Position numbers and translations under genes: made by a program | Shown here: one piece after another, positions 4,050 through 36,298 of the stretch | Position numbering within the stretch: position 1 is the stretch's first letter | Layout of the letters: every line of letters starts with the position of its first letter | The notes under the pieces: generated by a model | Seen by the model: the letters and a program-made list of their open reading frames with translations, nothing else | Database searches by the model: none | Told to the model about the DNA's origin: nothing | Assembly: GCA_964017185.1 (NCBI GenBank) | Contig: OZ024870.1 | Span: 35,108,139 to 35,172,138 of the forward strand | Reading direction: 5' to 3' | Length of the DNA stretch: 64,000 bases | Source: Rugalucina vietnamica | Lineage: Eukaryota > Mollusca > Bivalvia > Lucinida > Lucinidae

Positions 4050-5855
4050 ATGGCTGACATTGGAAACAACGACGAAGCGAGTGGCGAAAGTTCGCCAAAT
4101 ATTGTGCCTAGTAGCGCTTCTGACGGAGAATTCTCCGGTTTCGAGGATCAGGAGGCTATAAGAAGAGGGGCTGTGTTAGTTGAGACCCCCATGAGCGACT
4201 ACGCACCCGATAATGACCAGGAATTCCCGATCGATATTGAAAGTGGGTGGGGAAAAAATGACAGTCCTCCAGTTGTTGCCCCATTCACGAGACAGTCAAA
4301 ATTAAATATCGAGATGGACTCGACAGGACCTATAGACTATTTTAAATTGTTTTTTAAGGAGAATATGTTCCAGTTAATCAAAGAACAAACAAACCTGTAT
4401 GCAGAGCAACATATTGATAGGGGTAATCTGTCGCCAAATTCAAGGTTCAGTTCCTGGACACCGGTCACTGATTCAGAAGTAAAGAACTTCTTTTCCCTGA
4501 TAATATGCATGGGGCTTGTGCATAAAACTCATATTGAGAAGTATTGGAGTACTAGTCCTGTGAATAACACACCCTATTTCAGTGCTAGAATGCCAAGAGA
4601 CAGATTTTTATGCATTTTATATAACTTACATTTGGTAAACAATGAACTTGATGACCGTACCGATCCACTGTTCAAAGTCAGACCTATGATAAGTCACACA
4701 TCTGAAACATTTTCCAGTGTTTATACTCCTGAAGAATATCTTAGTTTTGATGAGGCCACCTGCCCCTGGAAATGGAGGCTTCGTTTTAAAGTTTATAACC
4801 CAGCAAAGCCTTGTAAGTTCGGGATAAAATTATTTCAAGCTTGTGAAGCACAGTCAGGATACTGCTGCGGCTATGATGTTTATGCGGGTAAAGGTGCTCC
4901 TAGTGCGGGAGACCTCTGTGAAGCTCTAGACTTAGATCCTGGCCTAACCCAAACTACAAAGATTGTTATTGGTGTTTTAGCTAAATGTGGACTGTTAGAG
5001 GCTGGTTATAGAGTGTTCATGGATAACTATTATACTTCTCCCGAACTTTTCACGGAACTAGATCTTTTGGGAACTTATGCATGTGGCACGTTACGAGTAA
5101 ATAGGAAAGGGGTACCTGATGCTGTTAAACGTAAACGAAAACTCCAACAGAATGAAGTAATATACAGAAGGAATGGGAATATCCTTGCTATCAAATTTCA
5201 TGATAAAAGAGATGTTCATATGATATCAACATTTCACGAGGCCACCATGGCAGTGCTCAACAAAAAGGTGTACGGAACCGACCTCAATGTTACAAAACCA
5301 CAACCTGTCGTTGATTACATTAAACACATGGGAGGTGTAGATCTCAGTGTCCAGTTCAATCAATATAACACAGTCATGAGGAAATCCCAGAAATGGTGGA
5401 AAAAGCTGTTTTTCCACTTGCTCAATGTGTGCATTGTGAACGCATATTGTATGTACTTGAAATTTTCTGAGGATGTCTCAAAAATGAGTCACTATGAATT
5501 TAGAATGGGTTTGGTGCAAGCTTTGGCAAATGAATCAGGTAGCATAGACATTCCACAAGTACCAAGGAGAAGGAGAACTGAGGAGGTTCCAGAGAGGTTA
5601 ACTGGAAGGCATTTCCCTGAATATATTCCAGCGAAACCGGGTGCAAAACGGGCAAAGCCAATACGGAACTGCTTTGCATGTAATGTCAAAAAGTCTGAAC
5701 GGGTTGGAGCAAAACGTAATGGTACAGCTTACTGGTGTGCTACTTGTAAAGTGGCACTCTGCATTCCAGATTGTTTCAGAGTCTTCCATACTCACAAACA
5801 TTACAGGCACATATTGTGCGGTGAGGGACAAGAGGTGTCAAGTGATTCCGACTAA
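4050..5855 (+). CDS. piggyBac transposase, intact 601 residues
   Basis: This is a cut-and-paste transposase of the DDE_Tnp_1_7 (PGBD-like) family that acts in the nucleus on TTAA sites. The frame is unbroken. An acidic N-terminus with an EFSGF motif at residues 27-31 is followed by the DDE domain. The three catalytic Asp are recognisable: D234 in SFDEATCPW, D325 in MDNYYTSPELF and D431 in GGVDL. The C-terminus holds a Cys-rich zinc domain (C541, C544, C563, C566, C571, C575 and following His). The ATG chosen opens the acidic leader; an overlapping frame that starts upstream is noise. Its length matches the family and no inactivating change is visible, so the protein could be active or recently active. 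Confidence 0.9.
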   Translation: MADIGNNDEASGESSPNIVPSSASDGEFSGFEDQEAIRRGAVLVETPMSDYAPDNDQEFPIDIESGWGKNDSPPVVAPFTRQSKLNIEMDSTGPIDYFKLFFKENMFQLIKEQTNLYAEQHIDRGNLSPNSRFSSWTPVTDSEVKNFFSLIICMGLVHKTHIEKYWSTSPVNNTPYFSARMPRDRFLCILYNLHLVNNELDDRTDPLFKVRPMISHTSETFSSVYTPEEYLSFDEATCPWKWRLRFKVYNPAKPCKFGIKLFQACEAQSGYCCGYDVYAGKGAPSAGDLCEALDLDPGLTQTTKIVIGVLAKCGLLEAGYRVFMDNYYTSPELFTELDLLGTYACGTLRVNRKGVPDAVKRKRKLQQNEVIYRRNGNILAIKFHDKRDVHMISTFHEATMAVLNKKVYGTDLNVTKPQPVVDYIKHMGGVDLSVQFNQYNTVMRKSQKWWKKLFFHLLNVCIVNAYCMYLKFSEDVSKMSHYEFRMGLVQALANESGSIDIPQVPRRRRTEEVPERLTGRHFPEYIPAKPGAKRAKPIRNCFACNVKKSERVGAKRNGTAYWCATCKVALCIPDCFRVFHTHKHYRHILCGEGQEVSSDSD

Positions 5856-6239
5856 ATACATGTATCATTCTATGTGAATGTAGTCTGTGGTCAATGGAAC
5901 TCATATGTGAATAAACATTAGCCCCATACATGTATTTATACCAGAAACTTGTTTATGATGTAGTTTTCTTCAACTGGAAGCAAAGCAAACAAAAAGACTG
6001 TATATTTTCAGAAGTTTATTGAACACATTTGGGTGTAACAAAGTATATGACACTGCAGTTGAATCCAGCTGTTTGTCTGTTCTATGGCTAAAGGTTCTTT
6101 TAGATAGGTATGCACATGTTTTACCTGAAAAAGAATAAAATTGCAAAGGTCACATGATTTTATCAATTGCCATCCAATCTCTTTTCTATGCTAAAAATGG
6201 TCAGAAATTTTTGTGAAGATTTTTGAGAAAAAAAAAAAA

Positions 6240-6335
6240 GTGCACACCTGGACAGGTAATTACATCTGTATTTACACCTGTAAAGGTGTAAACAATCTGT
6301 ATTTACACCTGTAAAGGTGTAAACACAGGTGTAAC
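6240..6335. repeat. ACCTGT cluster, proximal block of piggyBac 1
   Basis: Several ACCTGT/ACAGGT hexamers occur in a few dozen bases, including two copies of an ACACCTGTAAAGGTGT palindrome. The same hexamers recur downstream (8280-9250) and in piggyBac 2 (31886-31950, 33908-34130). Confidence 0.6.
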
Positions 6336-6363
6336 TAGAAATTGGCTGCAAGCAAGGCTTTCA

Positions 6364-8160
6364 GTATACCCCCCGCAAAATTATCTGAAGCTGGCCAATA
6401 ACTTCTTAAGTCAAACATGCAGAAAATTTGTCAAAGATATCTTTTCAGCATTATAATCCTTCATGTACATCCTCAGTATGCCAATCACATCTATAAGATA
6501 TTAAAAGAATATATTGAAAGCTTGAGGTTGATTTCACTGTATGCACTATGATCTTTGTTTATCATGAGAAATGGTAAAAAAATGGCTAAGTTAAATAAAA
6601 GCAGTAAATTTGTCAAAAATTAAATTTTCAGCATGAAAATTATTGATGTACATCTAAAATATATCTGGAACAAATCTACAAAGAATTTAAAAGAAACACT
6701 GAAAGCCCTACGAGGAGTTGATTTCACAAAAGTATGCACTACCAACCATTATTGTATATAAGCAATGGTCAAGAAATGGCTATGTTGAAAGGTGATGTAA
6801 ATTTGTCAAAAATCACTTTTTCAGTATTATAATTATTCATGCACATCTTCAATATGTGTGGAACATGTCTGCAAAGTAATGAAAAGAAATACTGAAAACC
6901 CTAGGAGGACTTGATTTCACAAAACATGCACTACCAACAATTATTGTTTATAAGCAATGGTCAAAAAATGGCTACGTTAAAAATTGCTGTAAATTTGTCA
7001 AAAATTATTTTTTCAGCATTATAATTCTTCATGCACATCTTAATTCTGTGTGGAACATGTCTGCGAAGTATTGAAAAGAAATACTGAAAACTCTAGGAGG
7101 AGTTGATTTCACAAACTATGCACTACCAACCATTATTGTATATAGGCAATGGTCAAAAATGACTATGTTGAAAAAATGCTGTAAATTTGTCGAAAATTAT
7201 TTTTTCATCATTATAATTCTTCATGCACATCTTCAATATATGTGGAACATGTCTGCAAAGTATTGAAAAGAAATACTGAAAGCCCTAGGAGGAGTTGATT
7301 TCACAAAATATGCACTACCAACCATTATTGTATATAAGCAATGGTCAAAAAATGGCTATGTTAAAAATTGCTGTAAATTTGTCAAAAATTATTTTTTCAG
7401 CATTATAATTCTTCATGCACATCTTCAATATATGTGGAACATGTCTGCAAAGTATTGAAAAGAAATACTGAAAGCCCTAGGAGGAGTTGATTTCACAAAA
7501 TATGAACTACCAACCATTATTATATATAAGCAATGGTCAAAAAATGGCTAAGTTGAAAAATGCTGTAAATTTGTCAAAAATTATTTTTTCACCATTATTA
7601 TTCTTCATGCACATTTTCAATATGTGTGGAACATGTCTGCAAAGTATTGAAAAGAAATACTGAAAGCCCTAGGAGGAGTTGATTTCACAAACTATGCACT
7701 ACCAACCATTGTTGAATATGGCAATTATCGAAAATTGGCTAAGTTCAAAATGCTGTAAATTTGTCAAAATTCATTTTTTGAGCATAAAACTTCTTCATGC
7801 ATATCTTCAATATCTCTGGCACATATCTGCAAAGTACCAAAAGAACATATTGAAAACTGTAGGAGAAGTTGATTTCACAAACTATGCACTATTAGCATTA
7901 TGGCAAACATTCTATTTATAGGTTTAAAAAGTCCCATAACTCTTGCAAAACTGACCCTTTGGCCCCTAAATTCATACCACACATGTGTTGTCTAATGGTG
8001 CAGGTGTGTTGAAAATTTGAAGAACATTGGGCAACAACTACTAAAGTTATTCAGCAAAGATGTCAAAATGTTGACGGAATGACGGAATGACGGAATCACG
8101 GAATTACGGACAGACTGAAAACAGTATACCCCCCTAAAACTTCGTTTTGCGGGGGGTATA
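6364..8160. mobile_element. Capped element with eight ~192-bp units
   Basis: It begins AGTATACCCCCCGCAAAA and ends with the inverse, TTTTGCGGGGGGTATA, next to a short hairpin. In between, a unit repeats with its GGAGTTGATTTCAC landmark ending near 6530, 6720, 6913, 7105, 7297, 7489, 7681 and 7871: spacings 190-193, most often 192. A short GACGGAAT-type repeat (8078-8110) precedes the right cap. There is no convincing ORF. Capped repeats of this style are abundant in marine invertebrates; I cannot name the superfamily. No clear target duplication was seen. Confidence 0.7.
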
Positions 8161-8279
8161 AATACCATTTTGTATTGTGGTGAAAAGGTGTGGCACTTAG
8201 GCACTCTGCATTTCTTACAATGAAAAAATGCTACTCTGTATAGTAAAGACATATAATAGCCATTATAATGGGGATCCAG

Positions 8280-9250
8280 TACTCTTATAAAATACAGGTG
8301 CGATATACTGGGTTTAATTTTACCTGTAATTTGTAATTAATTAGATAATCTTATATCTTTGATAATAGCAGAATGCTTATATGGTGAATAAAGTTCATAT
8401 TTACAGCTCCAAACAGTTACTTCTATGATCTGTATGTAAAAAAACCCGGTATTTTTTAAAAAAAAAAAGATAAAAAAATACCTGTATTCTCACCTGTATT
8501 GGGAAAATTCTCACCTGTCCAGGTATACTTTGATATATAGGTTGAAGAATGTTTATTGTTGAATGGATACAGCTTGAGTTTTCATACATAAAGCGCTTAG
8601 AAAAAGTCATATGAAGATTTGAAAAGAAGTACCGTACTGCCTTCATTTCACTTCAAATATATTCAAAATACAGGTGAGTCATATTCTCATTAAAAATACC
8701 TGTATATGCTATAAATATGCACAAATAGAAAGAAAAAAGGGCTGAATAATTTTGAAGAAAAGTAATGCCTGATAAAAAGTCCATAAAACACAATTTTATA
8801 CATTTTAAAAGCCTTTGCAATTGAATTTTACCTTTTTTTAAAGAAAATTTACCTGTATTCTCACCTGTATAGGTAAAATTCTCACCTGTCGCGGAATTAT
8901 TTGGTACATTTTGAAGAAATTTTATTGCTAAACAATTAACATTTGAGTTTTCATTCATAAAGCAAATAGGATAACCAATAGAAAGATTTGAAAATAGGTA
9001 CTGTAATGCCTTGAAACATTGGCAAAATACAGGTGAGTCATACCCTAATAAAATACCTGTTATTATTATACTTAGGTGAAATATATCTTTTTAAAGAGTC
9101 ATTATCACTTTGACACTTAGAGTGATACATAGTCCACAAAACTAGCATTATTGTCATTTTAAATGAATTTGAATGAAAAATTTACCTTTTTTTAATTAAA
9201 TTTACCTGTATTCTCACCTGTACAGGTGTAAATCTCACCTGCACATCAAT
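8280..9250. repeat. Tandem ~360-bp x 3 with ACCTGT pairs
   Basis: The phrase ACCTGTATTCTCACCTGT occurs near 8481, 8851 and 9203, and AAATACAGGTG near 8293, 8667 and 9029, giving a period of about 350-375. Each unit therefore presents one ACAGGTG, one ACCTG and a triplet of ACCTGT-like sites. It lies just inside the 3' end of piggyBac 1. CACCTG is also an E-box sequence, so binding by a host factor is as possible as binding by transposase. Confidence 0.65.
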
Positions 9251-9539
9251 AATTTTTGGTCTATTTGAAAGTTCAGTCACTGACCTTCCACTTTTGTATT
9301 GGGTGTTTGGTTGTAATACATGTATGTATAGAACAAAAGTTACATGGTTTTAAAGGAAAGTACTAGAAAATTAAAAAAAATACTCTGACTTTCTCAGCAT
9401 TGGCAACCCAATTATGTAACAGAATTGGCAGCGCTGCAAGGGTTAATAACATGAAAAGTAATCAGATCACCAAGCATGAATGTGCCCATGGTCAGCTTAA
9501 GTAGTACAACGATTGAACCTATTATGTGGCACCTTAATA

Positions 9540-10345
9540 ATCCCCGAGTTTCAAAACAGGATTATGAAATTGCAGCACGGGCAATAGGCTGTTAATACAC
9601 TTTCTTCTCATAACACACACTTGCAACAGACTGGAAACAAACTGGTAATACACAAAAGATAACTGGTAATACACTAGGAGTATACTGGAAACAAACTGGT
9701 AATACACTGGGAGACAACTGGTAACACACTGACAATAGACTGGTGTCAAATACTACATTCTGGTAACACTTGCAATAGACTAGAAGCAAACTGGAAATAC
9801 ACTGGAAGCCAGCTGGTAACATGATGGCAATACACTGGCAATAAACCTTTATGGATTTTTATTGCCAGTGTATTGCCAGACCCCTTTAATACCAGTCTAT
9901 TACCGGATATCTACCAGCACCCAAAAAAGCTGGCAATACTATGGTAATAGGCTGGAAAATACCAAATACAGTCTATTACCATAATACTACCAGCCTATTG
10001 CCAGTTATCCAGCCTATTGCCAGACTGTTGCCAGACTATTGCCAGATTTTCCGCCTATTGCCAGCCTGTTGACAGTCTGTTACCAGCTAGTTATAACTAA
10101 AATATACTTTTTGGAAAGATAAAAAAACCTCAAGTTTTATCAATGACAGTCTATTACCAGTGTATTGCCAGCATATAACCAGCATCATCCAACCCTGGCA
10201 ATAAACTGGTACATAACTGGCAACACTCTGGTAACAAGCTGGCAATCTGGTAATCATCTGACAATAATGTGGTAATACACTGGCAACAGATTGGCAATAA
10301 ACTGGTAATAGACTGGTAATGGACTTGCAATGGACTGATAATACA
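9540..10345. repeat. CTGGTAATACA minisatellite with orientation switches
   Basis: Short, imperfect 10-11 bp units of the type CTGGYAATACA run in the + sense from about 9600 to 9850. They then appear in the opposite sense (TATTGCCAG) to about 10190, and in the + sense again to 10345. A local hairpin (about 9925-9995) lies near the first switch. The array runs straight into the truncated N-terminus of the pogo transposase at 10349. Confidence 0.75.
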
Positions 10346-10348
10346 CCT

Positions 10349-11628
10349 AATTTTCATAAGGGTTATGATCAGGAGACTGAGGACAAGGTTGCCACCTTCG
10401 TGATAGAGAGAAGGGAGCACCAGTTGCCGGTAAGCCGTGCTCGTGTTAGTCGGTACGTACTTTCACTCACCAAATCCAAGTATCCAGACTTTAAAGCTTC
10501 GTCAGGGTGGATGACGCGATTCATGGATAGTAAAACAACTTCAGTGTGAGACGTCATATCTCAGAAATTACCAGCTGACTTGGAGATTCGACTTGTGGCG
10601 TTCTACAAACATTTGAATGAACTCAGAGACACAAAGGAACTGGACGAGGAGGCCTTAATTATTAATTTGGAAGAAGTGCCCATGGTGTTTGATACTGTGC
10701 CTAAGACTACGTTAAATATGCGAGGTGTGAAAGATGTCCGAGAACAACAGGAGGAGAAAAGAAGCTGTACACTGCTGTATTGGCCGTCAGCGCTGCTGGT
10801 GAGTTTCTCCCAACAATGGCTATCTTCAAAGGGAAGCGCAACCCAGACGACGTTAACGGACCAAAAGGATGGGTTGTGTGTTTCAACGACAAAGCATGGA
10901 TGAGGGAAGACGTAATGATACGCTGGATAAAGGAAATTTTACATCCGTACATCCGGCACTGCTCGTGATGGACTCCTTCTCGGCACACATCACGCCAAGT
11001 GTTCGGAGAGAGCTCGAGAGAATCAACACCTACCCAGCTATCATCCCCCGGCGGTTGTACGAGTAAGGGGCAGCAGTTAGACGTCGTGATCAACAAGCCG
11101 TACAAAGACAGGGTGCGGTCATGCTGGTCGGACATGGATTTTGAGGTCAGTGAGTCCAGTCTATTTCATACTAAGAATCTACCTACAGAGCTGAAATAAG
11201 AAAACAATAACTCTATCTTTTCAAAAGTCAGTTTAAAGTGTCTGGCTTTCGCTGCCAGTTCTTAAAGGGTCACTGATGAGGGTTCGGTACCCGAAATGGT
11301 ACAATATGACCCATCTTCTCGCTTTTAATGTTTTACTGCTTCCAAAGGATCTAACAAGGACAGTCTTGTACTGACAGGACCATCACGACAAAATGTGGTC
11401 AGCTGGATGGCAATGGCGCAGAACGAACTGCAACAGACGGCTTACATCGCTAAGTCATTCAAGGTCACAGGAATATCCAATGTGCTTAGTGGCACAGAAG
11501 ATCACATGATCAGGGATTCCGACCTCATACCTGAGAATGATTGTCTCTACAGGGACGATGAGTTAGATGAATTTTCGGGGTTTGACAGCGATGAGGTTGA
11601 AGACCCATTCATTGACCTCTGTGACTAA
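10349..11628 (+). pseudogene. pogo/Tigger transposase, decayed
   Basis: Pieces in several frames line up in order with a pogo-type transposase. They are a CENP-B-like helix-turn-helix ending in FKASSGWMTRFM (10349-10540), the start of the DDE domain with VPMVFDTVPK (about 10580-10740), FLPTMAIFKGKRNP (about 10810), LVMDSFSAHIT (about 10965), QQLDVVINKPYK (about 11070), and a C-terminal part with SFKVTGISN and EDHMI (11378-11628). The Asp of the usual triad can be placed in FDT, VMDS and QLDV. Frameshifts break it. The segment 11146-11377 looks like an intron or insert (GTCAGT to CTGACAG), although phase does not close cleanly. The C-terminus carries EFSGFDSDEV. The first helix-turn-helix is missing. 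Confidence 0.75.
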
Positions 11629-12544
11629 ATAGTGTTGACAAGCAGTGCAGTGACATGCACGTGCAAGCAACAAACTTTACATGTGGTTGCTAGCGGCGAT
11701 GTCCGGACATTACCATATCTGTTGACTGGGGCATTAAGCAAGAAATCGGTCAAACAAACAAAATTTTACATATGAAATCTCATTATTTACAAGGATTTGT
11801 TTTTATTATTTTATTTATTTAATTATTTATTTTATTTATTTTTTATTTTTTTTTTTTTTTTTTCGCAACAATAGTTTTTGTGTAAACATGTTTAATATGC
11901 TCAGCTACTTCTTTGTACATGTACAGCAGTGTAGCTCTTCATCGATGCAATGTATATTTGAGGAAAGTGCTGGCACCCATTGGTAGTTTCACTTGACAAT
12001 GAGTGGTCTGATGTTCGAAAACAGCCTCCGCTTTGAGCAAGACACATTAAGGTTTAGTGTTCAGGAAGTGATGATTGTTCCGAGGTTCATTCATATACAT
12101 GTAGTTTTTCTTCGACATCATTTTGCACGTTCTTGTTTGTTTCTTATCTGTTTGTTGTTGTTGATTTTTTTTTAATTCAAATATTAATATGTCCTGATTA
12201 AAGAAAGTATTGAAACTGTGCTTTCGTATCATTTAACACCGAGCTTTGTCAGTTTTAAAGAAGTAGAAGAAAATTATGTGGTTACTGGTAGCTTGGTCGG
12301 TATCAAGTCGACGCATGTTTGCTCGCGATCGAACTACGGACTTGGCACATTCTATCGTGAGCATCAAACACACATTTACTCCCTGTAGTATCGATAGCAG
12401 GGGCTCCGTCCCAATGTGACTGCATAGTTGTTGACTGGGTCGTTCAAATCAAAATGTGCAAAACAAAGATGGTGGTTAGAATAACTGATCGTCACGAATC
12501 AGACTGGTCTTGAACAAGTTTTGCTTCATAATACATGGATCCTG
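11629..12544. other. Non-coding, AT-rich
   Basis: An A/T-only stretch with long T runs lies at 11805-11865. A SINE-tail-like fragment (GGCTCCGTCCCAATGTG) is near 12400. No gene or pogo 3' end was identified. Confidence 0.5.
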
Positions 12545-12985
12545 ACTAGATCCGACACAAACTAGTCTGTTCAACAACAGAATATGGCTAATCTATTCTG
12601 GATTTGAAAATCTGGATTCAGAATGTACTAGTAGTCATTGTGCAATCTCTGCATAGCAAACAAAATGTTATGCTGATCAGCTGAGTGGCTATAGAGTCTA
12701 TATTTTTTTTTTTGCATTCAACTTGTAACCGTGTTCTGAAAAACAAGATTACTTTCATTAGAAAGCAACACATATTTTGAGCCGCCACATAAAATACAAA
12801 ACAAAATACATAGGCGAAAACAAAGACGCAGATCAGATGTGCAACAGCTGCACATCTAACTGATCAGCGTCTTTCTTTTCGCTACACTGCGCAATCGATG
12901 TTCTTCTTAAAATCCAAAATTTCCAAGCGTCTGGCCTGCCTCTGTGGCTGTACATTTTCGTGTGTATACACCGCCGCTTCACGTG
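12545..12985. mobile_element. Two degenerate hairpin MITE copies
   Basis: At 12545-12640 the phrase TCCGACACAAAC...CTGT of the GAGCCGC MITE is readable. At 12780-12985 another copy runs in the opposite order, starting GAGCCGCC. Its central stem (AGACGCAGATCAG ... CTGATCAGCGTCT) has changed loop sequence compared with the copy at 1983. Confidence 0.55.
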
Positions 12986-13119
12986 GCATAAATAGAGCCA
13001 ATACACAACAAAACAGCAGATTTGATGGCTTAGCTTCAAAAGGAAAATTTCGGAAAGATATTTCAGATGTTTCAGTTTGCCCTCATACGATTTGCATCTT
13101 TTGCCTTTAATAAATAATT

Positions 13120-13155
<36 letters not shown>

Positions 13156-13497
13156 GGAACAAGTGAAATAAACAATAAATGTGCAAGTACCGATATTTCA
13201 TGGTAGGTGGTACATTTTATTTTGCACGTCAACAGTAAACATGAGGCATGAGAAAAGAAACATTCTGTTTAATAAAAACGATCTTTCACTGATGGCGTCA
13301 GAAAGGATTATAGGTCGGTATTTACTCTACAATCATGCCAAAGTTTTGCGTACGAACTATTAAAAATTTAGACCCTTGAAAAAATCGAGTGTACGAACTA
13401 AAAGAGCAAATTTTAGGGATCCGGGCCAAAATAATTTTTGGTGTTCGAACTGCTTGGGTGTTCGAACTAATTGGTCATTTACCGTATATTGTAAATA
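12986..13497. other. Non-coding, includes poly(A) run
   Basis: A pure A run of about 33 bases spans about 13122-13154. It may mark the 3' end of an old retroposed sequence, but no parent is recognisable. Confidence 0.4.
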
Positions 13498-14840: not shown

Positions 14841-14880
14841 GTTAAGAATATATCTATGCATACATTACCTTAAATTTCAG

Positions 14881-15043: not shown

Positions 15044-16702
15044 GAGGACCAATGGTCCTGTAAACGCTCACCTGAGATCTGCTTCATATGCCAATAAACA
15101 TATTTGAATATTATGGTACTTAACCCCAGTGCATGGGCAGATGAAGCCCTTGGGCCATTTTCTTTTTTCAGAACAATCAATATTCTGTCCATTTGCTAGT
15201 TTCCTGCTGATTTTTCCCTTCAAATAACATTTTAAAAGCAGATGAGCCCCTGGGGTCCATTTTTTTTTCAGAATCATTAAATTTCAGTCCTACTGCCTAT
15301 TTCCTGCAAGACTTTCACTTAAAATGACATTTTAAAAGTTTTCCCAATTCAAATGCATTGACGACCTATGTTGACCTTGCCATAAAATAGGTCAAGGTCA
15401 CCATAGGGTCATGTTTTATAAATATATTGTAGTACTTGAGTCATCCATACTTCATGCAAAGTTTCGTTGAAATCGGTTCATCAGTTCTGGAGAAGAAGAT
15501 ATTTTAAGGGTTTTTACCATATATGGGCATGGCGGCCATCTTGGTCATGTGACCTGGATTATTTATATACACATTGGTTCCCACTTCCTATAGATGCTTC
15601 ATATAAGATTTGGCTTTGATTGGCCAAGTGGTTTCAGAGAAAAAAATCTTTGAAAAGTGTGTATGGACGACAGACCGGCCAAGGTCAAGAGATGACCTTG
15701 ACCTAAATTAATCATATGCCTTCATCTAATCCATTATTTGTTTACATCTACCACTTTTCAGATCTCAGGCTGCAATAGTTTTCAAAAAATAGCTAATTTC
15801 CACTTTTCCCATTATAAGTCTATGGAAACTTAAAAGTTACCATAGCTACCAGAGTTCTTATCTGACTGGAATAAAAAACACAAATTATGTAGAGGCTACT
15901 GTCAGGAACATGTATACAAAGTACAGGATTCATCCACTTGACAGTTTCTGAGGAGAAGATTTTTTAATGTTTTTTTTTTTTAATTTTGCCCTTTATGGGG
16001 CCCCAGCAACCAATAACAATAAAGGATTAGGACAAAACTCGCAAGAAACATCAAACACTACTCAATAAAAATTTCTGAAAAAACAAAATTCAAATGTCTG
16101 CAATTTTAAAGGAAAAATAGCCGATTTCCACTTTTCCCATTATAAGTCTATGAAAACTTTAAGTTGCCATAGCAACCAGAGTTCTTATCCGCCTGGAATA
16201 AAATCACAAATTATGTAGAGGCCACTGTCAGGAACATGTATACAAAGTATAGACTTCATCCCCTTGACAGTTTCTGGGAAGAAGATTTTTGAATGTTTTT
16301 CGATACTTTGCCCTATATGGGGCCCCTGCAACCAATCAAAATGAAGGATTAGGACAAAAGTCACATGAAACATAGAGGACTACTCAATAAACATTTCTGC
16401 AAAAAACAAAATTCAAATATCTCTAACAAGAGAGCAAAAACTGGCAATTTTCACTTTTTTCCATTATAAGTCTATGGGAAGCATAAGTTGCCATAGCAAC
16501 CAGAGTCCTTATCCGATCAAAACAAAAAACACAATTATTCTATCCCCCTACCTGTAGATGGTGTATGTGTAATATGAGAACAATCGGCCCAGCGGTTTCA
16601 GAGAAGAAGATCTTTGAAATTGTGGACGACGGACGGACGACGGACGGACGCCGGAGCATGGGTATACTATAAGCTCACCTATGAGCCTTCGGCTCAGGTG
16701 AG
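15044..16702. mobile_element. Capped repeat element, ~327-bp units and GACGGACGG tail
   Basis: The left cap is AGGACCAATGGTCCT with CGCTCACCTGAGAT. The right end is a GACGGACGGACG tail (about 16625-16650) and a hairpin cap CTCACC...GAGCCTTCGGCTC. The part 15360-15770 is the reverse complement of the unit at 13498-14290. Another unit with CCATTATAAGTCTATG repeats near 15808, 16137 and 16462, a period of about 327. No ORF of interest. A fragment of the family is at 38877-38990 in the hAT intron. Confidence 0.65.
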
Positions 16703-20429: not shown

Positions 20430-21436
20430 ATGAATTTCATCTCCCACTCGCTCCTTAATGCGGAGGCTGTTCAAGAAATAAGAAAGGACATGCGGGAGCT
20501 GAAACGGAAACGCGATACGGAGGAAGAAACGCCGGCAAAGAAATCACGGGCAGAATCATCAAAGGAGACACCACAAGATGGGCCAGGAGAGTCAAGTTTA
20601 CAGGACGTTTCGGAGTCGGAGGACTCGGAGTCTGAAGAGGATCTGGACTCCTTCATGGACAATAATAAAACAGAAGCAGAATCACAGGACACACTGTCGG
20701 ATCTAGAAGATTTCTTTGCTGCGGACGATGGGACGGGGGAAGCCCTGGGGGAGAGAATGGCCAGAATAACGGAAAAGGGGCTTAGAGGCAAAAAATCCAA
20801 AAAAGATGAGGATAAACTAAAAGAACTGCGAGATAAACACAAACGACCGAAGAACATTGAAAATCTGCAGGCCCCAAAGTAGAGGAATTTGCCTGGAGGC
20901 AGATGAAATGAGAAGTCAAGAGAGTTGACTACGCGTTAAAGAAAGGCATGCTGGACTGTGCACAAGCAGTTACCCCACTAGCGAAGGCGTTAGAAATAAT
21001 TCAAAATAATGGGGATCAGGATGCAATGAAAAACAATGTCATGGATGCTTTTAAGATACTGTGTCTCCAGATAAAAGCTACAAATGTCAAAAGGCTAGAT
21101 CTGATCAAGAAAGAAATGCAACCTAAATATAGAGACCTGTGCGCAGAACAACCTTCTGCCACTAAGCTGCTGGGGGATGGCTTCCAGGAAGCGGTGAAGA
21201 AGCTGGATGGTACCAAAGGTCATCTCACCATTTCCTCTCAAAATTTTTTAGGGAGGAAGGGGGGCGACAGACATCAATCACCCTATCAGTACCACAGGGA
21301 TCAAAACAACAATTACGGTTACCGAAAGAACCAGAACTACCAAGGAGGAAAATTCCAGCAGAAGGGGAAGTTCAATTACACCACCAACAACAGGAACCCA
21401 AACAAGGGGAAAGCACCTCAATCGATGAGGAAATAA
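20430..21436 (+). pseudogene. DIRS-A gag-like ORF1 (one frameshift region)
   Basis: A first frame (20430-20882, 150 residues) is acidic and Ser/Glu/Asp-rich with a basic end. A second (20948-21436, 162 residues) continues with a helical region (AVTPLAKALEIIQNN) and ends in a Gln/Asn/Gly/Lys-rich tail such as NYGYRKNQNYQGGKFQQKGK. Between them the frame is lost over about 65 bases with one in-frame stop. DIRS ORF1 proteins are thought to act like Gag, binding RNA. There is no CCHC zinc knuckle. The start codon overlaps the left tip of the element. Confidence 0.65.
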
Positions 21437-24870: not shown

Positions 24871-24903
24871 ATTTTTCATTTCAGTGCTAAGTTATGTTGG
24901 TGA

Positions 24904-25736: not shown

Positions 25737-26155
25737 GTAAGCATTTACTATTTTTTTTTTAAATAGAAACAGCTGATCATTTTGGAATCAGCTTCGGTGT
25801 TTGTTTCCGATAGTTTTTACGTTGAGATAAACTCTGTCTTTTTATTCTTGTACGTAAAATGGCCATCGTGGAGGACTCCTCTATAACTTGTACTTTACCA
25901 CCCTTTTTATTTTTTCATAATACTTGTATTTGTTTGCCTCTTTTTCGACTTTTGAAAAGGCCCATTATAATGCCTTTCACGAGGCAGTATTTTGCTAAAT
26001 AATTATGCTTCTCCACTTAAGAAATGCACTACAGTCAAATGAATTACAAGAAGTTTACTGTTTTAACACACTTCCGTTGTGATAACTCATCACATACATG
26101 TATGATGTTATTTTGTTTGGCTTGTTAAAATGTTATGATTTTAATTATGTTTCAG

Positions 26156-26212
26156 GCTGCCGATCTGAAAGCTCCCATTGACAATCGTGTTAATGCCCAC
26201 ATTAAGAAATAA
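26156..26212 (+). CDS. Host gene last exon
   Basis: It follows ATGTTTCAG in phase 0 and encodes AADLKAPIDNRVNAHIKK and a TAA stop. The basic short tail ends the gene that runs through 24904-25110 and 25584-25736, and possibly from 19611. Confidence 0.7.
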   Translation, partial: AADLKAPIDNRVNAHIKK

Positions 26213-27176: not shown

Positions 27177-27182
27177 TGAATT

Positions 27183-28000
27183 AACCCTCTTCCTGCGGGA
27201 CCCGCATGTATGCGGAATCGTAGGCTCAGGCTGTATGGCTGCACCTGCATATATGCGGATCCGGGGGTACCGTGTTTTAGTTGCACAAATCTCTTGACCA
27301 ATCAGAATCAACGTACTATCGATGTTCGGGTCGGTTGCTATAAGCGATGAAAAAACGTTTCGGCATATTATCGGACATTATAATTGGTTTTACAGGTAAG
27401 TCACATGTCTTTTAGCGAGATTTCATCAGCTGTTAAAGATAGCGAATTACATGCCACAAATGGGATCGTTTTTTGACGATTTAAATGCCGATTCTGATAG
27501 TGGGGATGAATTTGAGGGCTTCGATGCCGACGAAATTGATAGTGACCGTGAGAATCGTGATGATTCTGACAACGAAGGGGCGTTTGACATAAAAAATTGG
27601 GCAGAGGGCGACCCGGAACCAACACGCCTTCAGTTTACAGGTGTGCCTGGGGTGACACTGCCTGGCTTCCTGATGACCCCGATGTGATTGATTATTTCTC
27701 AGTTTTTGTAAAGAATGATGATTTTGAGGTCATGGCAACAGAAACAAACCGATATGCAGCCAAATATTTACAGGATAATGCTGAACATTTAAAACCAATT
27801 TCTTGTTTCAACTCATGGAAAGAAACTACCTGGCAGGAAATGAAACTTTTCATCGCACTCACATTAGCAATGGGTTTAGTCAATCAGTTAGACTTGTCTG
27901 AGTATTGGTCAACAGGTGAGATCACTGACACCCCATTTTTCTCTTGGATCATGTCAATAGACAGGTTTTGGTTGCTACTCTCTTTTTTTCACAAAAAATC
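27183..28000 (+). mobile_element. piggyBac element 3, 5' part only
   Basis: TTAACCCTCTTCCTGCGGGA near 27181 is a piggyBac-type 5' end with a subterminal hairpin (CCGCATGTATGCGG) and a second GCATATATGC site. The same end recurs at 49684. The transposase N-terminal half follows and stops at about 28000, where the tandem array begins. No 3' end was found. Confidence 0.65.
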
Positions 28001-28005
28001 AGCCT
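27451..28005 (+). pseudogene. piggyBac transposase N-terminal fragment
   Basis: An acidic leader with DEFEGFDADEI (EFEGF at 27508-27522) is followed after a frameshift near 27650 by the start of the DDE_Tnp_1_7 domain. Readable pieces are VIDYFSVFVKND, ETNRYAAKYLQ, MKLFIALTLAMGLV, LSEYWST and TPFFSWIMSIDRF. These match residues about 90-190 of the intact transposase at 4050. All catalytic Asp are missing because the copy is truncated. Confidence 0.8.
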
Positions 28006-29806
28006 AAACATGGACTATTCCCACAATATTAAGAAACTTAAAACATATGGTTGTTGGGACCATGCAATGTACTCCAGAATGATAGAACTGAAGGAAACAT
28101 TTGTTGTATGGGCTCGCTCATTGGTTCAGTGCATTAAAACATTTCATTTAAATAACTAGTGGCAATTAAGTTTGTTTGTTTTCAGAATCTGATCCTGAGA
28201 ACAGTGAAGGAAGCCAGGGGACTGTTACTTTGTAAACATTTAACATAATAATGCTAGTGGAGACCATGCAATAAGCACCAGAATGATAGGACTGAAGGAA
28301 ACGTTTGTTGTATGGGCTCATTGTTTCAGTGCATTAAAAACATTTCATTTAAATAACTAGTGGCAAGATTGTTTCCAGAGTCTGATGCTGGGAACAGTGA
28401 AGGAAGCGTGGGGACTGTTACTTTGTAAACATTAGTGTTTGGGATTTGAAAAGTACTTTGTTGCAATATGGTTTCCCTATCAAATAGTTGTGCTTTGATG
28501 GAGGAAATTCAAATAGAGCCTTCCAAATGTTGCATTTCAAGATAGAGTAACCACTTTTGAAGGTTTTTTTTACAGCCTAAATATGGACTATATTAAGAAA
28601 CATGGAAAAAAAAAAACATATATAGTAGTGGGGACCATAATATGTGCCCCAGAAAGGTAGGACTCAAGGAAGCATTTGTTGTATGGGCTCAATGGTTCAG
28701 GGCATTAAAAACATTCCACAATATTAAGAAACTTAAAAACATATGGTTGTTGGGACCATGCAATGTACTCCAGAATGATAGAACTGAAGGAAACATTTGT
28801 TGTATGGGCTCACTCATTGGTTCAGTGCATTAAAACATTTCATTTAAATAACTAGTGGCAATTAAGATTGTTTGCTTTCAGAATCTGATCCTGAGAACAG
28901 TGAAGGAAGCCTGGGGACTGTTACTTTGTAAACATTGAACATAATTATGCTAGAGGAGACCATGCAATAAGCATGAGAATGATAGAGCCTAAGGAAACAT
29001 TTGTTGTATGGGCTCATTGTTTCAGTGCATTAAAAGTGTTTCATTTAAATAACTTGGGGCAAGATTGTTTGTTTTCAGAATCTGATCCTGAGAACAGTGA
29101 AGGAAGCCTGGGGACTGTTACTTTATATTATGTTTGGGATTTGAAAAGTACTTAAATGCGATAACGTTTCTCCATCTAATATTTGTGCTTTAATGGAGGA
29201 AATTCAAAAAGAGCCTTCCAAATGTTCCATTTTCAAGATAGAGAAACCACTCTTTTTGAATTTCCAACAATGAACATGGACTATTCCCACAATATTAAGA
29301 CACAGGTAAAAAAAACATATATGGTAGTGGGGACCACATAATATGTGCCCCAGAAAGGTAGGACTTTTTTTAAAAGGAAACATTTGTTGTATGGGCTCAT
29401 TATTTCAGTGCATTAAAAACCTTTCATTTAATAACTATGGGCAAGATTGTTTGTTTTCAGAATCTGATCCTGAGAACAGTGAAGGAAGCCTGGGGGCTGT
29501 TACTTTGTAAACATTTAACATAATTATGCTAGTGGAGACCATGCAATAAGCACCAGAATGATAGAACTGAAGAAAATTTTGTTGTATGGGTTCAATTTGT
29601 TTCAGTGCATTAAAAACCTTTCATTAAAATAACTATGGGCAAGATTGTTTGCTTTCAGAATCTGATCCTGGGAACAGTGAAGGAAGCCCGGGGACTGTTA
29701 CTTTGTAAACATTTAACATAATTATGCTAGTGGAGACCATGCAATAAGCATGAGAATGATAGAACTACAGGAAACATTTGTTGTATTGGCTCATTGGTTC
29801 AGTGCA
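28000..29806 (+). repeat. Tandem array of exon-like units
   Basis: Units contain a pyrimidine-rich TTTGTTTTCAG followed by AATCTGATCCTGAGAACAGT and a run that stays open for about 16 codons (ESDPENSEGSLGTVTL). They also carry a block with GAATGATAGAACTGAAGGAA and GTGCATTAAAAAC. The exon-like start is seen near 28186, 28378, 28881, 29078, 29460 and 29659, with a seventh at 34380 beyond piggyBac 2. A higher-order period of about 700 is visible (28007 to 28711; 28574 to 29268). No complete gene is present. Confidence 0.7.
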
Positions 29807-30081
29807 TTAACCCTTAAAGTGCCAATCGCTACAAATGTCGCGATGCGAAAAAAATGGCCGAAACTGCCGATCGCGTCAATTGTCGCGATTTGTAGTGCTA
29901 TCTTATAGGCGAGCGTACTACTGTAATGACGCTATATACTATTTTTAGATCGGGAATATCCAATACTGGAAATATGAACCAATGAAATGAAAGTATTTTG
30001 GGCATATGTTTATTATTAGAATATTGACGTAAATTATGTTCTTTGCAAGGTAGTTTCCAATCCCAGTTTCCATAATTCAAG

Positions 30082-31877
30082 ATGGCGGCGGTTGGAAATT
30101 TGCGTGATTCCGAAAGTGAAAGTGACAATAACTCTGCCAATTCTGGCTCCGATTCGGAGTTTGAAGGGTTCGAAGGAGAAGAAGTACAGTTGTTAGGCAA
30201 TGTTTTACGTTACACTTCAATTCTTAACCCCGATTATGATCGGGAAGTACCGAAAGATGTGACTCTGAATTGGACCGATGTTGATACCCCACCCACTATT
30301 GCACCTTTCAATAGAGACGTCGGTTTGACAGTGCATTTAGAGGAGGTTGCGTCCCCTTTGGAATTTTTCCAGCTGTTGTTTGACAAGGACTACTGGGAGA
30401 AAATTGTTACCCAAACAAATAATTATGCAGCTGCTAGAATAAATAATGAGGCCAGGCCAATGACACCCCAAAAGTAGATTACAAAATTGAAGTCCAGTAA
30501 ATTGATGAAATGAAACTGTTTTTTGCCCTTTGTATTTTGATGGGCCGTGTGTACAAGGAATCAATAGAAGACTATTGGACCACTGAGGAAGCTATATTGA
30601 CTCCCTTTTTCAGTAAAAGTATGAGTAAAAACAGGTTTCTAGCAATTCTAAGCAACCTTCATCTGTCGGACAGTACAAGGGAAGTTCCACATGGTCAAGA
30701 TGGACATGATCCCCTCTATAAGTTGAGAACATTTGTAACAATGTGTAGTAAAAACTTTTGCGACGACAGGGAACTGAGTGTTGACGAATCCACCTGCCCA
30801 TGGAAGGGAAGGCTTAGGTTCAAAGTGTACAATCCTGCCAAACCTGACCGATTCGGTATCAAACTTTATTCGGTGAACGAAGCTTCGTCGGAGTATTGCA
30901 TTGGCTTTGATGTTTATACCGGAACTACACCCGCGGCCAATACTCTGAAATTAGTGGACCTCAACCCAGAGTGTGGTCAGACTACAAGAATTGTAATTGG
31001 GTTGCTGGCAAAAACTGGGTTGCTGTTCAACGCACATGATGTATGGATAATTATTATGTTTCCCCTGAACTTTTCGATGAACTGTCCGTTAGAGAGACTT
31101 ACGCCTGTGGTACCGTGCGAAAAAACAAAGGAATTCCCTGAAGTTTGAAAGGCAAACACAGGAACATGCTACTAGGGGACTCAGTATTTAGGAGGAGAGA
31201 CGATCTCTTGGCGGTGAAATATCTTGACAAGCTCCAAGTGCACATGCTGACGACAATTCATGTTGCCGAGAATGGTATCCTGGACAAGAGAGACACCAAT
31301 GGTCGAGCTAAATTCAAACCATCATGTATTATCGATTATTGCAAATTTATGGGCGGCGTTGACCTTTCAGATCAGAATATGAAGTATACTACTGTATTAT
31401 GAGAAAATCTCACAAGTGGTGGAGGAAACTTTTCTTCTTTTTTTTTTTCAACATGATACTTACAGTTTCGCACTGTATAGGAAATATGGGTCCAATAAGA
31501 GGATGAAAAGTCAACAATTCCGACAGCATATAGCGTCTGCCCTTATCCAGGAGGCCACTGAAGCCCCTAAACCTAAACCAGCCAGGAAGAAACCCCTAAC
31601 TCATAGTGAAAGGCTCAATGGGAGGCACTTTCCAGCACACAATGAAGCCCAACCTGGTGCTAAGCGTAAGCATCCATCACGTGACTGTGTTGCCTGTAAC
31701 CCAAGTTTCAAGAATAGGGGCCCACACAAGTACAAACGAACACAAACTGCATTTAGATGCCCAGACTGCAATGTTGCCCTCAGTGTCCCAAGGTGTTTTG
31801 AGTTGTATCACACCTACCAAAACTATCGGCAAGTTCTTACTGGAGAAAACGGTGCTGAAAACAGTGATTCAGACTAA
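30082..31877 (+). pseudogene. piggyBac transposase, frameshifted
   Basis: Four consecutive pieces (30082-30477, 30510-31148, 31145-31402, 31416-31877) cover a nearly full-length transposase. The acidic leader has EFEGF (30157-30171). VDESTCPWKGRLRFKVYNPA holds the first catalytic Asp. The region equivalent to MDNYYTSP is out of frame by one base near 31050. GGVDLSDQ holds the third Asp. The C-terminal zinc domain has CVACN and CPDCNVAL. At least three frame breaks make this copy non-functional. It is clearly diverged from the intact copy at 4050, so it belongs to a different piggyBac family. Confidence 0.85.
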
Positions 31878-31883
31878 TTTTGA

Positions 31884-31960
31884 CACACCTGAGTGATTGC
31901 ACACCTGTAACGAGTTAGTGTATACCTGTAATTAGTTTTACACACCTGTAATTAAGGTGA
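31884..31960. repeat. ACCTGT cluster, proximal block of piggyBac 2
   Basis: Three ACCTGTAA/ACCTGTAAT motifs and one ACCTGAG lie within about 65 bases, directly after the transposase stop. Confidence 0.6.
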
Positions 31961-32081
31961 AATGTACTTGTATTTGAATGTTTAAAACTGTTTTGTGGTT
32001 TCATGAAAGATAGAAGTGATTTTATAACCTGGAGAAGCTACTGTTTGTAAAATAACTAGAAATGCGTGTTTGTAAAACACT

Positions 32082-33880
32082 ATGCCCCCAACTGTATGCT
32101 TGTCCCTAAACTGGCAGCTTGTATGATTCATTATTTCATTTGAATTAAGTGAAATTTAATTTCCTAAAAAAGCTGTTCGGTTGCCTTTTTTGCCTCCATC
32201 CAGAAACAGAATGTAAGCCTTTGCATACAAGTTAGAAATGGAGTAAAAATTTCAAAATGGAGTTATTTTGTCAAAATTTGATGGAAAGTCCTCAAAAAGT
32301 AATCAGGTGATCTTCTTCTCAGCCCCAACCAGTATACCAAATATGAAGGCTCTAACTTAAATACTTTTTCAGATATCTTGCACACAAGATTTTCAAATTT
32401 TATTTTAAAAGGGCCATAACTCCAAAAAAATGCATACCTTGAACATGAAAAAAAATGCCTGTCAACTATTTTTTCATGAGGAATTTGTATATGAAATTTC
32501 AAAACCCTAACATTCACTGTTCAAAAGTTTCAAATTTCACCGATAAGTGGAAAAATCAATCAAAATTTCAAAATTCTGTATTTTTGTAAAAATTTGACGG
32601 AAAATTCTCAAAAGTTAATCAGGTCATCTACTCCTCAGCCCCAACAACTGTACCAAATATGAAGGCTCTAGCTTAAATACTTTTTGAGATATCTTGCACA
32701 CAAGATTTTCAAATTTTGTTTTCAAAGGGACATAACTCAAAAAAGGGGCATAACTTGGCCATACAAAAAATACGGGTCAACTATTTTATCATGAGGAATG
32801 TGTATATGAAATTTCAAAACCCTTGCATTCACCATTCAAACGTTTCAAATTTCACCAAAAAGTGGAAAAATCAACCAAAATTTCAAAATTCCGTATTTTT
32901 GTGAAAATTTGACAGAAAGTTCTCAAAAAATAATCAGGTCATCTACTTCTCAGCCCCAACAAGTGTGCCAAATATGAAGGCTCTAGCTCAAATACTTTTT
33001 GAGATATCTTGCACACAATATTTTCAAATTTTGCTTTCAAAGGGACATTACTCAGAAAAGGGGCATAACTTGGCCATACAAAAAATACGGGTCAACTATT
33101 TTATCATGAGGAATGTGTATATGAAATTTCAAAACCCTAGCATTCACCTTTCAAAAGTTTCAAATTTCACTGAAAAGTGGAAAAATCAATCAAAATTTCA
33201 AAATTCCGTATTTTTGTCAAAATTTGACGGAAAGTTCTCAAAAGTTGATCAGGTCATCTACTTCTCAGCCCCAACAAGTGTACCAAATATGAAGGCTCTT
33301 GCTCAAATACTTTTTGAGATATCTTGCACACAATATTTTCAAATTTTGTTTTCAAAGGGACATAACTCAGAAAAGGGGCATAACTTGGCCATACAAAAAA
33401 ATACGGGTCAACTATTTTATCATGAGGAATGTGTATATGAAATTTCAAAACCCTAGCATTCACCTTTCAAAAGTTTCAAATTTCACCGAAAAGTGGAAAA
33501 ATCAATCAAAATTTCAAATTCCGTATTTTTGTCAAAATTTGACGGAAAGTTCTCAAAAGTTGATCAGGTAATCTACTCATCATCCCCAACCAGTATACCA
33601 AATATGAAGGCTCTAGCTTAAATACTTTTGGAGATATCTTGCACACAAGATTTTCAAATTTTGTTTTCAAAGGGAAATAACTCAGAAAAGGGGCATAACT
33701 CGGACAAGAAAAAAAATACGGGTCAACTATTTTTTCATGAGGAATACACACATGAAATTTCAAATCCCTAACATTCACCATTCAAAAAAAAGGCGTTACA
33801 CACGCACACACAGACAGACAAGCCCAAACCAATATGCCCTTCCAACTTTTTCAAAGTTGGGAAAAAGTTGGGGGCATAAT
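32082..33880. mobile_element. Capped element with ~315-bp units
   Basis: It begins CTATGCCCCCAACT and ends with the inverse AGTTGGGGGCATA, next to a TTCCAACTTTTTCAAAGTTGG hairpin. In between, a unit with AATCAGGT/GATCAGGT recurs near 32301, 32617, 32932, 33247 and 33562, a period of 315-316. Just before the right cap is a CACACACAGACAGAC tail. The architecture is the same as 6364-8160 but the unit sequence differs. Long apparent ORFs here come from the repeat and are not genes. Confidence 0.7.
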
Positions 33881-33904
33881 GAAGACTGACGCTTCATCGA
33901 GTTC

Positions 33905-34135
33905 CTGTTCACACCTGTAATTTTCAAGGTAAATTACCTGTATTACCTGATTATATGTATTTTCCATGCTGAAATGTCACTTCATGTATTTCTGCTAGAA
34001 TCTAAAAACTTTTCAGCAGCTAGAAAGCTGTTTTTTTTTTTTTGTTGTTTTTGTTTTTAAATCCTGTGAAGCACAGCTTTTTTACCTTTTTTTCATAAAA
34101 TCTGTATTCTAACCTGCACAGGTAATATATAGGGA
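33905..34135. repeat. ACCTGT cluster, distal block of piggyBac 2
   Basis: ACACCTGTAATTTT, TTACCTGTATTACCTG and, at about 34082, a TTTACCTTTTTTT...CTGTATTCTAACCTG phrase. The last closely resembles the 3' units of piggyBac 1 (about 8830-8880). Confidence 0.6.
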
Positions 34136-34471
34136 CACACATGCATCAAAAGGTAAGAAATGAAAAGATCAGACAATATACTTCAACTTTTTTATACATT
34201 TCATTATTCTATCTTCATAAATAAAAACGATACAGCATGTTAAAGACATGTACCCATTTTAACACAATTTTTCACAAATTTGCTTGGCAGAGGCAAAAAC
34301 ATAAGTTATTATTTACACGACACTTTAAGGGTTAAAAACATTTCATTTCAATAACAAGGGGCAAGATTGTTTGTTTTCAGAATCTGATCCTGAGAACAGT
34401 GAAGGAATCCTGGGGACTGTTACTTTGTCAACATACAACTAAACAGTTCGTTCATTAATGACAGGAGGAGA

Positions 34472-34864
34472 TTGACAAGAGAGATAAATTTGCTGCCTAA
34501 CTACTGTTATAGAGAAAGGGTTCCACTCATCATATCAGAAATTCCTATATATTCTATTAGTAAATACAATTCTGTAGCAGGACACAACTTCCCTGAACTT
34601 TTTTCGGATCAAGATATTCACCTTTCGGAACAGCTCAGCATAAGTAATCAAGAAATTCAAGACATTAATGACATCAGCTTTACAGGTTTCTCCACGTTTC
34701 TCCCTGGACTTCTGCTTAGAAATAGATCAAATGTTCGCCTCCGACGACAAAGGACGTATTATTACAACTTTAATTTGTACGGGGATGGAGTTCATCCTAA
34801 AACACTACTGGCTAACCTGTGGCTTATGAAATTGGCCCTAATGGTGAAAAGGGACTGTTTTTGA
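34472..34864 (+). pseudogene. SGNH-hydrolase-like C-terminal fragment
   Basis: A 130-residue open frame with YYYNFNLYGDGVHPKTLLANLWLMKL near its end. The DGVHP (D-x-x-H) box is the last catalytic block of SGNH/GDSL-type hydrolases, as seen in hydrolase-like proteins carried by invertebrate mobile elements. The Ser, Gly and Asn blocks are not visible, so this is a fragment. DISFTGFSTF in the middle also contains FxGF. It lies immediately after the last exon-like array unit (34380). Confidence 0.4.
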
Positions 34865-35193
34865 TTACACTTTCTAAAATATGTTGATTGCAAGGAATGC
34901 CTATAGCTTATAGTATATATAGGCTGATACATGGCATCTGTCAATCAACTTTTGCTTTTAGACTGACCATAAAAAAGTGCCAAAAAAAAAATGTCTCCCT
35001 CATTTGATTTTTCAAAGAGTTGCCTGAGAAACAATTATATTATTTTCTTTTGGCCTTATTTCAGATTGCTTGTTCAGGGAAAACAGATATGTTGAAAACA
35101 ACGCTACAATGCAAGACTAACATGTTTATGGAATTTTTCATTTATTTGAGTGGAAACACTTAACAAATCTTTCGCTATCCATACTTATGAATA
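34865..35193. other. Spacer, no gene seen
   Basis: AT-rich DNA up to the left tip of DIRS-B. Confidence 0.5.
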
Positions 35194-35340
35194 CATTATT
35201 TTCATATTGGCCTACAGCCTGCGAATATCTAAGCATGTTCTTCCTAGACCGTCTTATAGCCGCGATTTAACGGTAAAAAATACCTCTATAATCATGTGAC
35301 GAAGTGTATAAAGAGGCGTGTCCGATCCACGCTTGTCATA
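35194..35340 (+). repeat. DIRS-B left inverted terminal repeat
   Basis: It begins CATTATTTTCATATTGG. Positions about 35225-35340 are inverted at 47923-48040 with few differences. CACTGTGTAAAG|GTAAGTG just downstream (about 35395) and TTTTTTTAG|GCCATGG (35714) could define a 5' intron ahead of ORF1. Confidence 0.75.
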
Positions 35341-35717
35341 GTTCTTTTTGCGACCGTAGTGTGCATATCGATAGCCGCTGTCACTGTGTAAAGGTAAGTG
35401 ACTACACGTGGCATTTTGATGGCTAGTTCTACGAAGTTAGAACTTTTTACAGCCTTGTAGCAACGGAGTTTTGCTTGCTTTTATATACTAGCTACAGCGT
35501 CTTTATGCTGTGTTTAGTGAACGAAGTTTGCTAATATGTAAATTACATATTTTATGCGTGTCCTTTGAAATTTCTTAGTGTTTTCTTGTTATGTTTTCAG
35601 GTTATTTGGCACAGCTTTTGCCTCGTAGCATAAAAAACTGACAGCTTTGATCTGTGTCGCTTTTATTGGATCATTTCCCAGTCAGTAGTTAATTCATTTT
35701 GACCGTTTTTTTAGGCC

Positions 35718-36298
35718 ATGGATAATGATAAACACGATAAAGATGTCCTTTCACTTGAAAGTGAGGACGAGGACTTATCGGGGTTTTCCTCTTTCGAGGA
35801 CGAGGTGATGGATGTCACAAAAAAGGGAAAGGCCTGGAAGAACTCTGGTCCGGGTCCGGTAAATAGTAAAGCTAAGGGAAGTAAAAAGTTGAGTGCTTCC
35901 GCCACTAAGGCTTCCGGTTCCTGTACAAAAAAGCAAAACAAAAAGAAATCGCAGAATAAAAATGATAGGGCATTTGATTTGAGCACACTCTCTGCTCAAG
36001 ATATCGAGCAATTAAAGTCCCTATTAGGGATTTCAGCATCTTTGCAACCCGAGGATAGTTTGGACGATGATGGTCACGTTTTATACTATGAGGTCCAGGC
36101 CCCACCCCAGAATGATCAAGAAGTTGATCAGATAATGGATCCCAATGTTGCTCCGAATTTTCAGGATGCATTATTTCAGTCAGAACATGGGTCTGTTGAC
36201 CTAAATGTGATTCCAATTGAGGTGGACAAAGATTGGTCCTTGCCGAAACTTAAAACCCCGGACAGGGGAGAACCAATTTCCGAATCGTTGGCAGGGTT
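35718..36298 (+). pseudogene. DIRS-B gag-like ORF1, first part
   Basis: The ATG follows a candidate acceptor (TTTTTTTAG|GCC). The product is acidic, with DEDLSGFSSFEDE near residues 17-29, then Lys-rich, then an acidic central part. The frame runs to ESLAG at 36298, where a hAT element begins; the text resumes at 41711. No zinc knuckle. Confidence 0.7.

Follow-up and report, generated by a model that had tools for sequence, protein, structure and literature searches.

Proteins of several unrelated transposon families in the lucinid bivalve Rugalucina vietnamica carry the short motif [DE]FxGF in acidic leaders or tails. The motif was followed from a 64,000-nucleotide stretch of contig OZ024870.1 (positions 35,108,139 to 35,172,138 of the forward strand; the window) through the window's own 1.09-Gb assembly (GCA_964017185.1). 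It is present far above the level found in shuffles, its place is kept per lineage, and it has been retained while much of its surroundings has changed; it is almost certainly a conserved functional element. The published consensus for binding to the integrase-binding domain (IBD) of LEDGF is D/ExExFxGF (PMC8022399; papers are cited here by PubMed Central number and from excerpts), and the likeness suggests, on the evidence of sequence, that these transposon proteins dock onto a LEDGF-type host protein. We consider it fairly probable that the recurrent and conserved motif is a convergent IBD-binding element that would tether transposon proteins to transcribed chromatin and, through such binding, might bias their insertion. 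An initial annotation of the window had proposed this interpretation, which was partly supported by the present analysis.

Motif-bearing transposons of the window

The initial annotation had placed five motifs on the forward strand of the window, and all five were located there when the letters were re-read (the transposons that carry them are on that strand too). The FxGF core is present at four of these sites; the exception, a DIRS-type copy, reads LSGF. The piggyBac 1 transposase (PB1) is encoded by an intact 601-residue open reading frame (ORF; 4050-5855) with matches to DDE_Tnp_1_7 (3.4e-88) and to the C-terminal zinc finger zf-Tnp_2 (2.5e-06). Its acidic leader carries EFSGF at residues 27-31 (4128-4142), and the motif is kept in L003, a genome copy that is 98% identical. 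The piggyBac 2 (PB2) and piggyBac 3 (PB3) pieces match DDE_Tnp_1_7 alone. PB2 (30082-31877) is frameshifted, with a domain match at 30510-31145 (1.7e-32) and EFEGF in its acidic leader (30157-30171). PB3 is an N-terminal fragment, frameshifted and then broken off (27451-27957, ends approximate), with a domain match at 27621-27956 (7.9e-14) and EFEGF in the acidic leader (27508-27522); L004 is a fuller copy. At 27957-29900, PB3 runs into recurring units (VVGTMQCTPE and FVVWA stretches) ahead of PB2.

A pogo transposase degraded by stops and frameshifts (10343-11628, start approximate) shows both marks of the pogo superfamily, HTH_Tnp_Tc5 (3.8e-07) and DDE_1 (1.7e-05), and carries EFSGF near its C-terminus (11569-11583). 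A relative on C6, 94% identical and with a 444-residue open frame, retains DEFSGFDSDEV. The motif is also kept near the C-terminus of L064, L065, L055 and L058; identity between the window pogo and L064 is about 45% over the best stretch. As had been described initially, the four strong motifs are followed by [DE]xxE[A/V/I], the re-read letters being FEDQEA, FDADEI, FEGEEV and FDSDEV.

Recurrence in piggyBac leaders

A search of the genome with PB1 gave 49 matches, and a separate Pfam search gave 40 piggyBac matches with no additional open frame of at least 300 residues. Nine groups with a readable leader were drawn by eye and afterwards checked by pairwise identity (L009 versus L013, 82%; L005 versus L007, 59%; remaining computed pairs below 50%); because L009 and L013 are 82% identical, the nine become eight under the 80% cut applied to pogo. 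The exact FxGF was found in five of the nine groups (PB1, PB2, PB3 with L004, L005, and the L009 group). In an alignment of seven leaders that extended into the beginning of the catalytic domain (identity to PB1, 26-37%), the motif block stood out on visual inspection as the leader's most conserved stretch. Moreover, F28, G30, F31 and E35 are common to PB1, L005 and L009, which are 32-34% identical overall. Rows were dropped when the leader was unreadable (L006, which resembles the L008 group, and L018, L020, L023 and L024), when a stop lay upstream of the place of the motif (L025), or when they were short fragments; L017 and L029, which form one copy, were dropped with a frame broken ahead of a motif reading FFGGF.

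At one further locus, L028 (C12:53443384-53447208), a diverged piggyBac domain lies beside long acidic and Ser/Lys-rich open frames, and its leader contains no motif; L028 is possibly a domesticated or host-fused gene.

Recurrence in the pogo superfamily and in a DIRS-type gag-like protein

A DDE_1 search of the genome gave 143 matches, of which a minority was read, and pogo families were split at 80% identity. FxGF was present in 7 of the 19 pogo-superfamily tails read (L038, L039, L055, L058, L064, L065 and the window pogo). In the pogo clade proper, joined by tail similarity (L055, L058, L064, L065, the window pogo, L082 and L083), five of the seven members have it. The motif takes two positions in the superfamily, near the C-terminus in L055, L058, L064 and L065, and in the post-catalytic linker in the Tigger-like L038 and L039. 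On a tree of 12 pogo-superfamily families, in which L054 forms a long branch and from which the window pogo, L069-L073, L082 and L083 were left out, the distribution of the motif requires two changes that follow from branches with good support. For L069, L070, L072, L073, L082 and L083, the tail alone was the basis for counting each as a family. Rows dropped were L051, L057 and L060 (truncated or altered copies of counted families), the degraded L084, and L066, L067 and L071 together with further copies of counted families.

The fifth site of the window lies in a gag-like ORF (35718-36341) that matched no Pfam family above cut-off; its assignment to a DIRS-type element is that of the initial annotation. 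Its family comprises 13 genome matches including itself. The window motif, DLSGF (35772-35786), had been regarded as a weaker form, a description that now applies to a diverged copy and not to the family: the first 120 bases were read in seven other copies, and all seven had DFSGF within SEDEDFSGFSSFEDEV. Their motif, EDEDFSGF, conforms to the full D/ExExFxGF consensus. One additional N-terminal match (C12:1963088-1963345) was left unread, and no such motif was found in the window's other gag-like ORF (20430-20882). The window ORF is only 207 residues long, compared with 446-450 residues for the open frames of six other copies.

Excess over chance and constraint on the residues

With shuffling within each region, [DE]FxGF was seen in five of nine piggyBac leaders against 0.03 expected and in 7 of 17 pogo-superfamily tails against 0.04 expected; combined, 12 of 26 regions carried it against 0.07 expected, figures that describe an excess and give no formal probability because related families are not independent. 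None of the scrambled or substituted motifs tried occurred in more than two of the 26 regions (range 0-2). Distinct open segments of at least 60 residues, taken from the window and loci L001-L080, amounted to 140,586 residues and contained 22 distinct [DE]FxGF contexts, of which 20 were transposase leaders or tails; the loci had been picked for transposases, so that this count serves as a background and not as a genome-wide enrichment. The two remaining contexts are a site within the catalytic portion of L018 and an opposite-strand frame in the L041 flank. Chance alone is disfavoured by the shuffles, the scrambled motifs and this background.

Among 14 motifs looked up, Phe and Gly are encoded by different synonymous codons from family to family. 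The initial annotation would have been refuted by a lack of conservation within each family. No such lack was seen: among the piggyBac groups and among the pogo groups the motif recurs amid leader or tail sequence that has mostly diverged, though not every family has it. The annotation had left open whether the motif was converged upon or kept. The position of the motif differs between the unrelated proteins, and two changes are already needed on the pogo-superfamily tree by itself; convergence over single descent is therefore supported. The two pogo-superfamily groups, piggyBac and DIRS make four lineages, provided that no segment was exchanged between unrelated proteins.

Two repeats deserve mention. 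A recurring repeat at 15502-15514 and in C17:12900001-12960000 reads F(E/K/stop)GFLPYMGMAAILVM in one frame and is a source of false FxGF matches. The ORF at 32974-33456 consists of a repeated unit, NMKALAQILFEISCTQYFQIL, and probably reflects a tandem repeat translated as though it were protein.

A candidate host partner

Absence of an IBD-bearing protein would have refuted the initial annotation, and one LEDGF-type IBD was detected in the genome, recognized by PF11467 (32.5 bits; cut-off 26.3) and accompanied by three exon pieces with GT-AG borders. The joined peptide, whose joins are approximate, matched the IBDs of HRP2 (7.3e-13) and LEDGF (1.1e-11) in the PDB. A PWWP first exon that reads MEYKPFDKIFAKVKGYPAWPAR and runs into a GT splice donor lies on the same strand, 48 kb upstream of the IBD; its profile match is weak (E 0.73), and the first exon of LEDGF/HDGF genes has this PWWP form. 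The genome appears to hold the exons of a PWWP-plus-IBD gene of the LEDGF/HRP2 type on C17, in which the first PWWP exon alone was seen and the joining transcript is predicted.

The IBD of such a protein is quite probably the partner of the motif. In the proposed mechanism, [DE]FxGF, exposed in an acidic and probably disordered stretch, would dock into the IBD, and the PWWP domain of the same host protein would hold nucleosomes of transcribed genes. The transposase would thereby be kept on active chromatin, as would, for DIRS, the gag-like protein with its DNA. As a consequence, insertions may fall in transcribed regions, donor copies may be easier to reach for excision, or both may hold; that the motif biases insertion is a tentative proposal, which we hold with more doubt than confidence.

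Comparison with known systems

Known partners of LEDGF/p75 are MLL1, JPO2/CDCA7L, IWS1, ASK, MED1 and POGZ, and HRP2 also binds POGZ, JPO2, IWS1 and MLL. The IBD-binding motifs of the LEDGF/p75 partners resemble those described here in having an FxGF core in an acidic stretch. The known carriers are host proteins, whereas those of R. vietnamica are transposon proteins, known to us as sequence. A PDB look-up with the motif peptides and with a motif profile gave no meaningful match, the best hits of the profile being repeats in an unrelated bacterial protein.

POGZ is the closest parallel. It derives from pogo transposons (PMC7386202), and its fragment 1117-1410, like a fragment of JPO2, binds the HRP2 IBD in the LEDGF-IBD mode (PMC7835958); PDB entry 6emp is, by its name, a solved IBD-POGZ fusion. 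Because POGZ comes from pogo, LEDGF binding in a pogo derivative is already known. The likeness extends to a pogo-type DDE domain and to a binding fragment in the C-terminal part (PMC7835958; PMC7386202). POGZ differs in being domesticated and in having zinc fingers, whereas the elements here are transposons. The parallel suggests that POGZ may have inherited its LEDGF/HRP2 binding, and with it the motif, from a transposase ancestor.

A second parallel is lentiviral integrase with LEDGF/p75, for here too the proposed user of the IBD is the protein of a mobile element. In HIV integrase, by contrast, the site is prearranged in structure and is not an unstructured motif (PMC10854676). The motif described here is, in form, two Phe three residues apart in an acidic stretch, often followed by [DE][LIV], within regions that are 20-36% acidic.

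We know of no FxGF in the leader of Trichoplusia ni piggyBac, and none is present in the part of the piggyBat leader shown (chain residues 38 onward). The T. ni leader is similar to those described here in being acidic and about 100 residues long, and its sequence matters for activity (PMC9499001). According to the same excerpt, loss of this disordered leader hurt excision more than integration, the effect depended on sequence and cell type, and the partners of piggyBac-type leaders were unknown in 2022.

Points that weigh against IBD docking

Several observations count against this proposal. The strict D/ExExFxGF was found in 5 of 13 motifs of this genome, and in none of the five window sites when read by eye; a Ser-relaxed form covers 11 of the 13 (L004 standing for PB3). 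Two of the nine piggyBac groups have near forms (CSGF in the L013 group, FSGY in L007) and two others, L008 and L028, have no motif in the leaders read. The first Phe was lost inside a single group when L009 and L013 are merged at the 80% cut. Exact FxGF is absent from 12 of the 19 pogo-superfamily tails (L041, L042, L045, L049, L052, L054, L069, L070, L072, L073, L082 and L083). In two of these an Asp/Glu run is followed by EFPGQYF (L082, C1:41168350-41168671) or EFPGVYL (L083, C9:46255314-46255620), and this EFPGxY ending may represent decay of the docking motif or a variant of it. The seven DIRS copies, with 90-93% identity to the window copy, hardly differ among themselves across the 40 residues read; they therefore show the motif that the family encodes and are weak evidence of constraint. 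On the host side, alignments show that the IBD of this genome differs from human LEDGF in a loop, with YKG where LEDGF has FKV and HRP2 has YKA. Finally, all motif data come from one genome, and scans of viral_contigs, genome_contigs and phages returned no cross-species relatives.

Alternative explanations

The motif might instead bind another protein through a TFIIS N-terminal domain (TND), such as IWS1, TFIIS, Elongin A, PNUTS or MED26, which would link the transposons to the elongation machinery and not to LEDGF/HRP2. The genome has six Med26/TFIIS-N-type matches, the IBD itself is a TFIIS-N-type fold (PMC7835958), and TFIIS, ELOA and LEDGF are all bound by IWS1 motifs (PMC13175633). However, the published FxGF consensus belongs to the IBD of LEDGF (PMC8022399), and the single PNUTS-bound motif found in the excerpt of PMC12278311 is VQPYF, not FxGF. 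We regard a TND partner other than LEDGF/HRP2 as unlikely.

The paired Phe of the motif, its acidic setting and the [DE][LIV] that often follows also resemble activation-type motifs. As an acidic-hydrophobic element of this kind, it would bind the PH domain of TFIIH p62/Tfb1, a coactivator or a kinase-regulated adaptor, and would recruit transcription or repair factors. Against this stand the Gly before the second Phe, which is constant in 12 of 12 aligned peptides (selected for the motif), and the absence of [DE]FxSF, [DE]FxDF and [DE]FxEF from all 26 regions. Because of these two features FxGF recognition fits better, and an activation-type function seems rather improbable.

Alternatively, the motif may have a role within the protein that carries it and, for instance, form an acidic, autoinhibitory clamp over the transposase's DNA-binding or catalytic domain. 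In favour of this, DNA mimicry is a known property of acidic tails. A second point is the influence of the T. ni leader on excision (PMC9499001). The same motif nevertheless occurs in unrelated folds and at different protein ends, which is hard to explain by internal contacts and makes this account quite improbable. Chance combined with shared descent, without function, is very improbable: inheritance could account for the motif inside piggyBac and inside the pogo clade, and some families lost it or never had it, but its excess over the shuffles, codons that drift while the residues stay, and its occurrence in separate lineages all speak against this.

Implications

Docking onto the IBD, the reading preferred here, is an interaction of a kind already known; what would be new is that transposons of several lineages employ it. 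No report of transposons themselves carrying the motif was found in the openly licensed literature searched. According to the excerpt of a 2013 review, contacts of cut-and-paste transposons with DNA-binding proteins of transcribed regions were unobserved and might explain non-random insertion (PMC3878927).

In a broader form, which could well be right and to which we give slightly less than equal weight, each of four lineages (piggyBac, pogo, Tigger-like and DIRS-type) would have acquired an IBD-binding motif and would be tethered to chromatin by the host protein that reads methylated H3K36. On that view HIV, with its use of LEDGF, would exemplify a strategy both old and general, and the LEDGF binding of POGZ would be a transposon relic.

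The finding points to a specific peptide and host domain and to simple tests with point mutants. It would provide a candidate partner for piggyBac-type leaders and an origin for the LEDGF binding of POGZ, and it may offer a handle on the insertion sites of transposon vectors.

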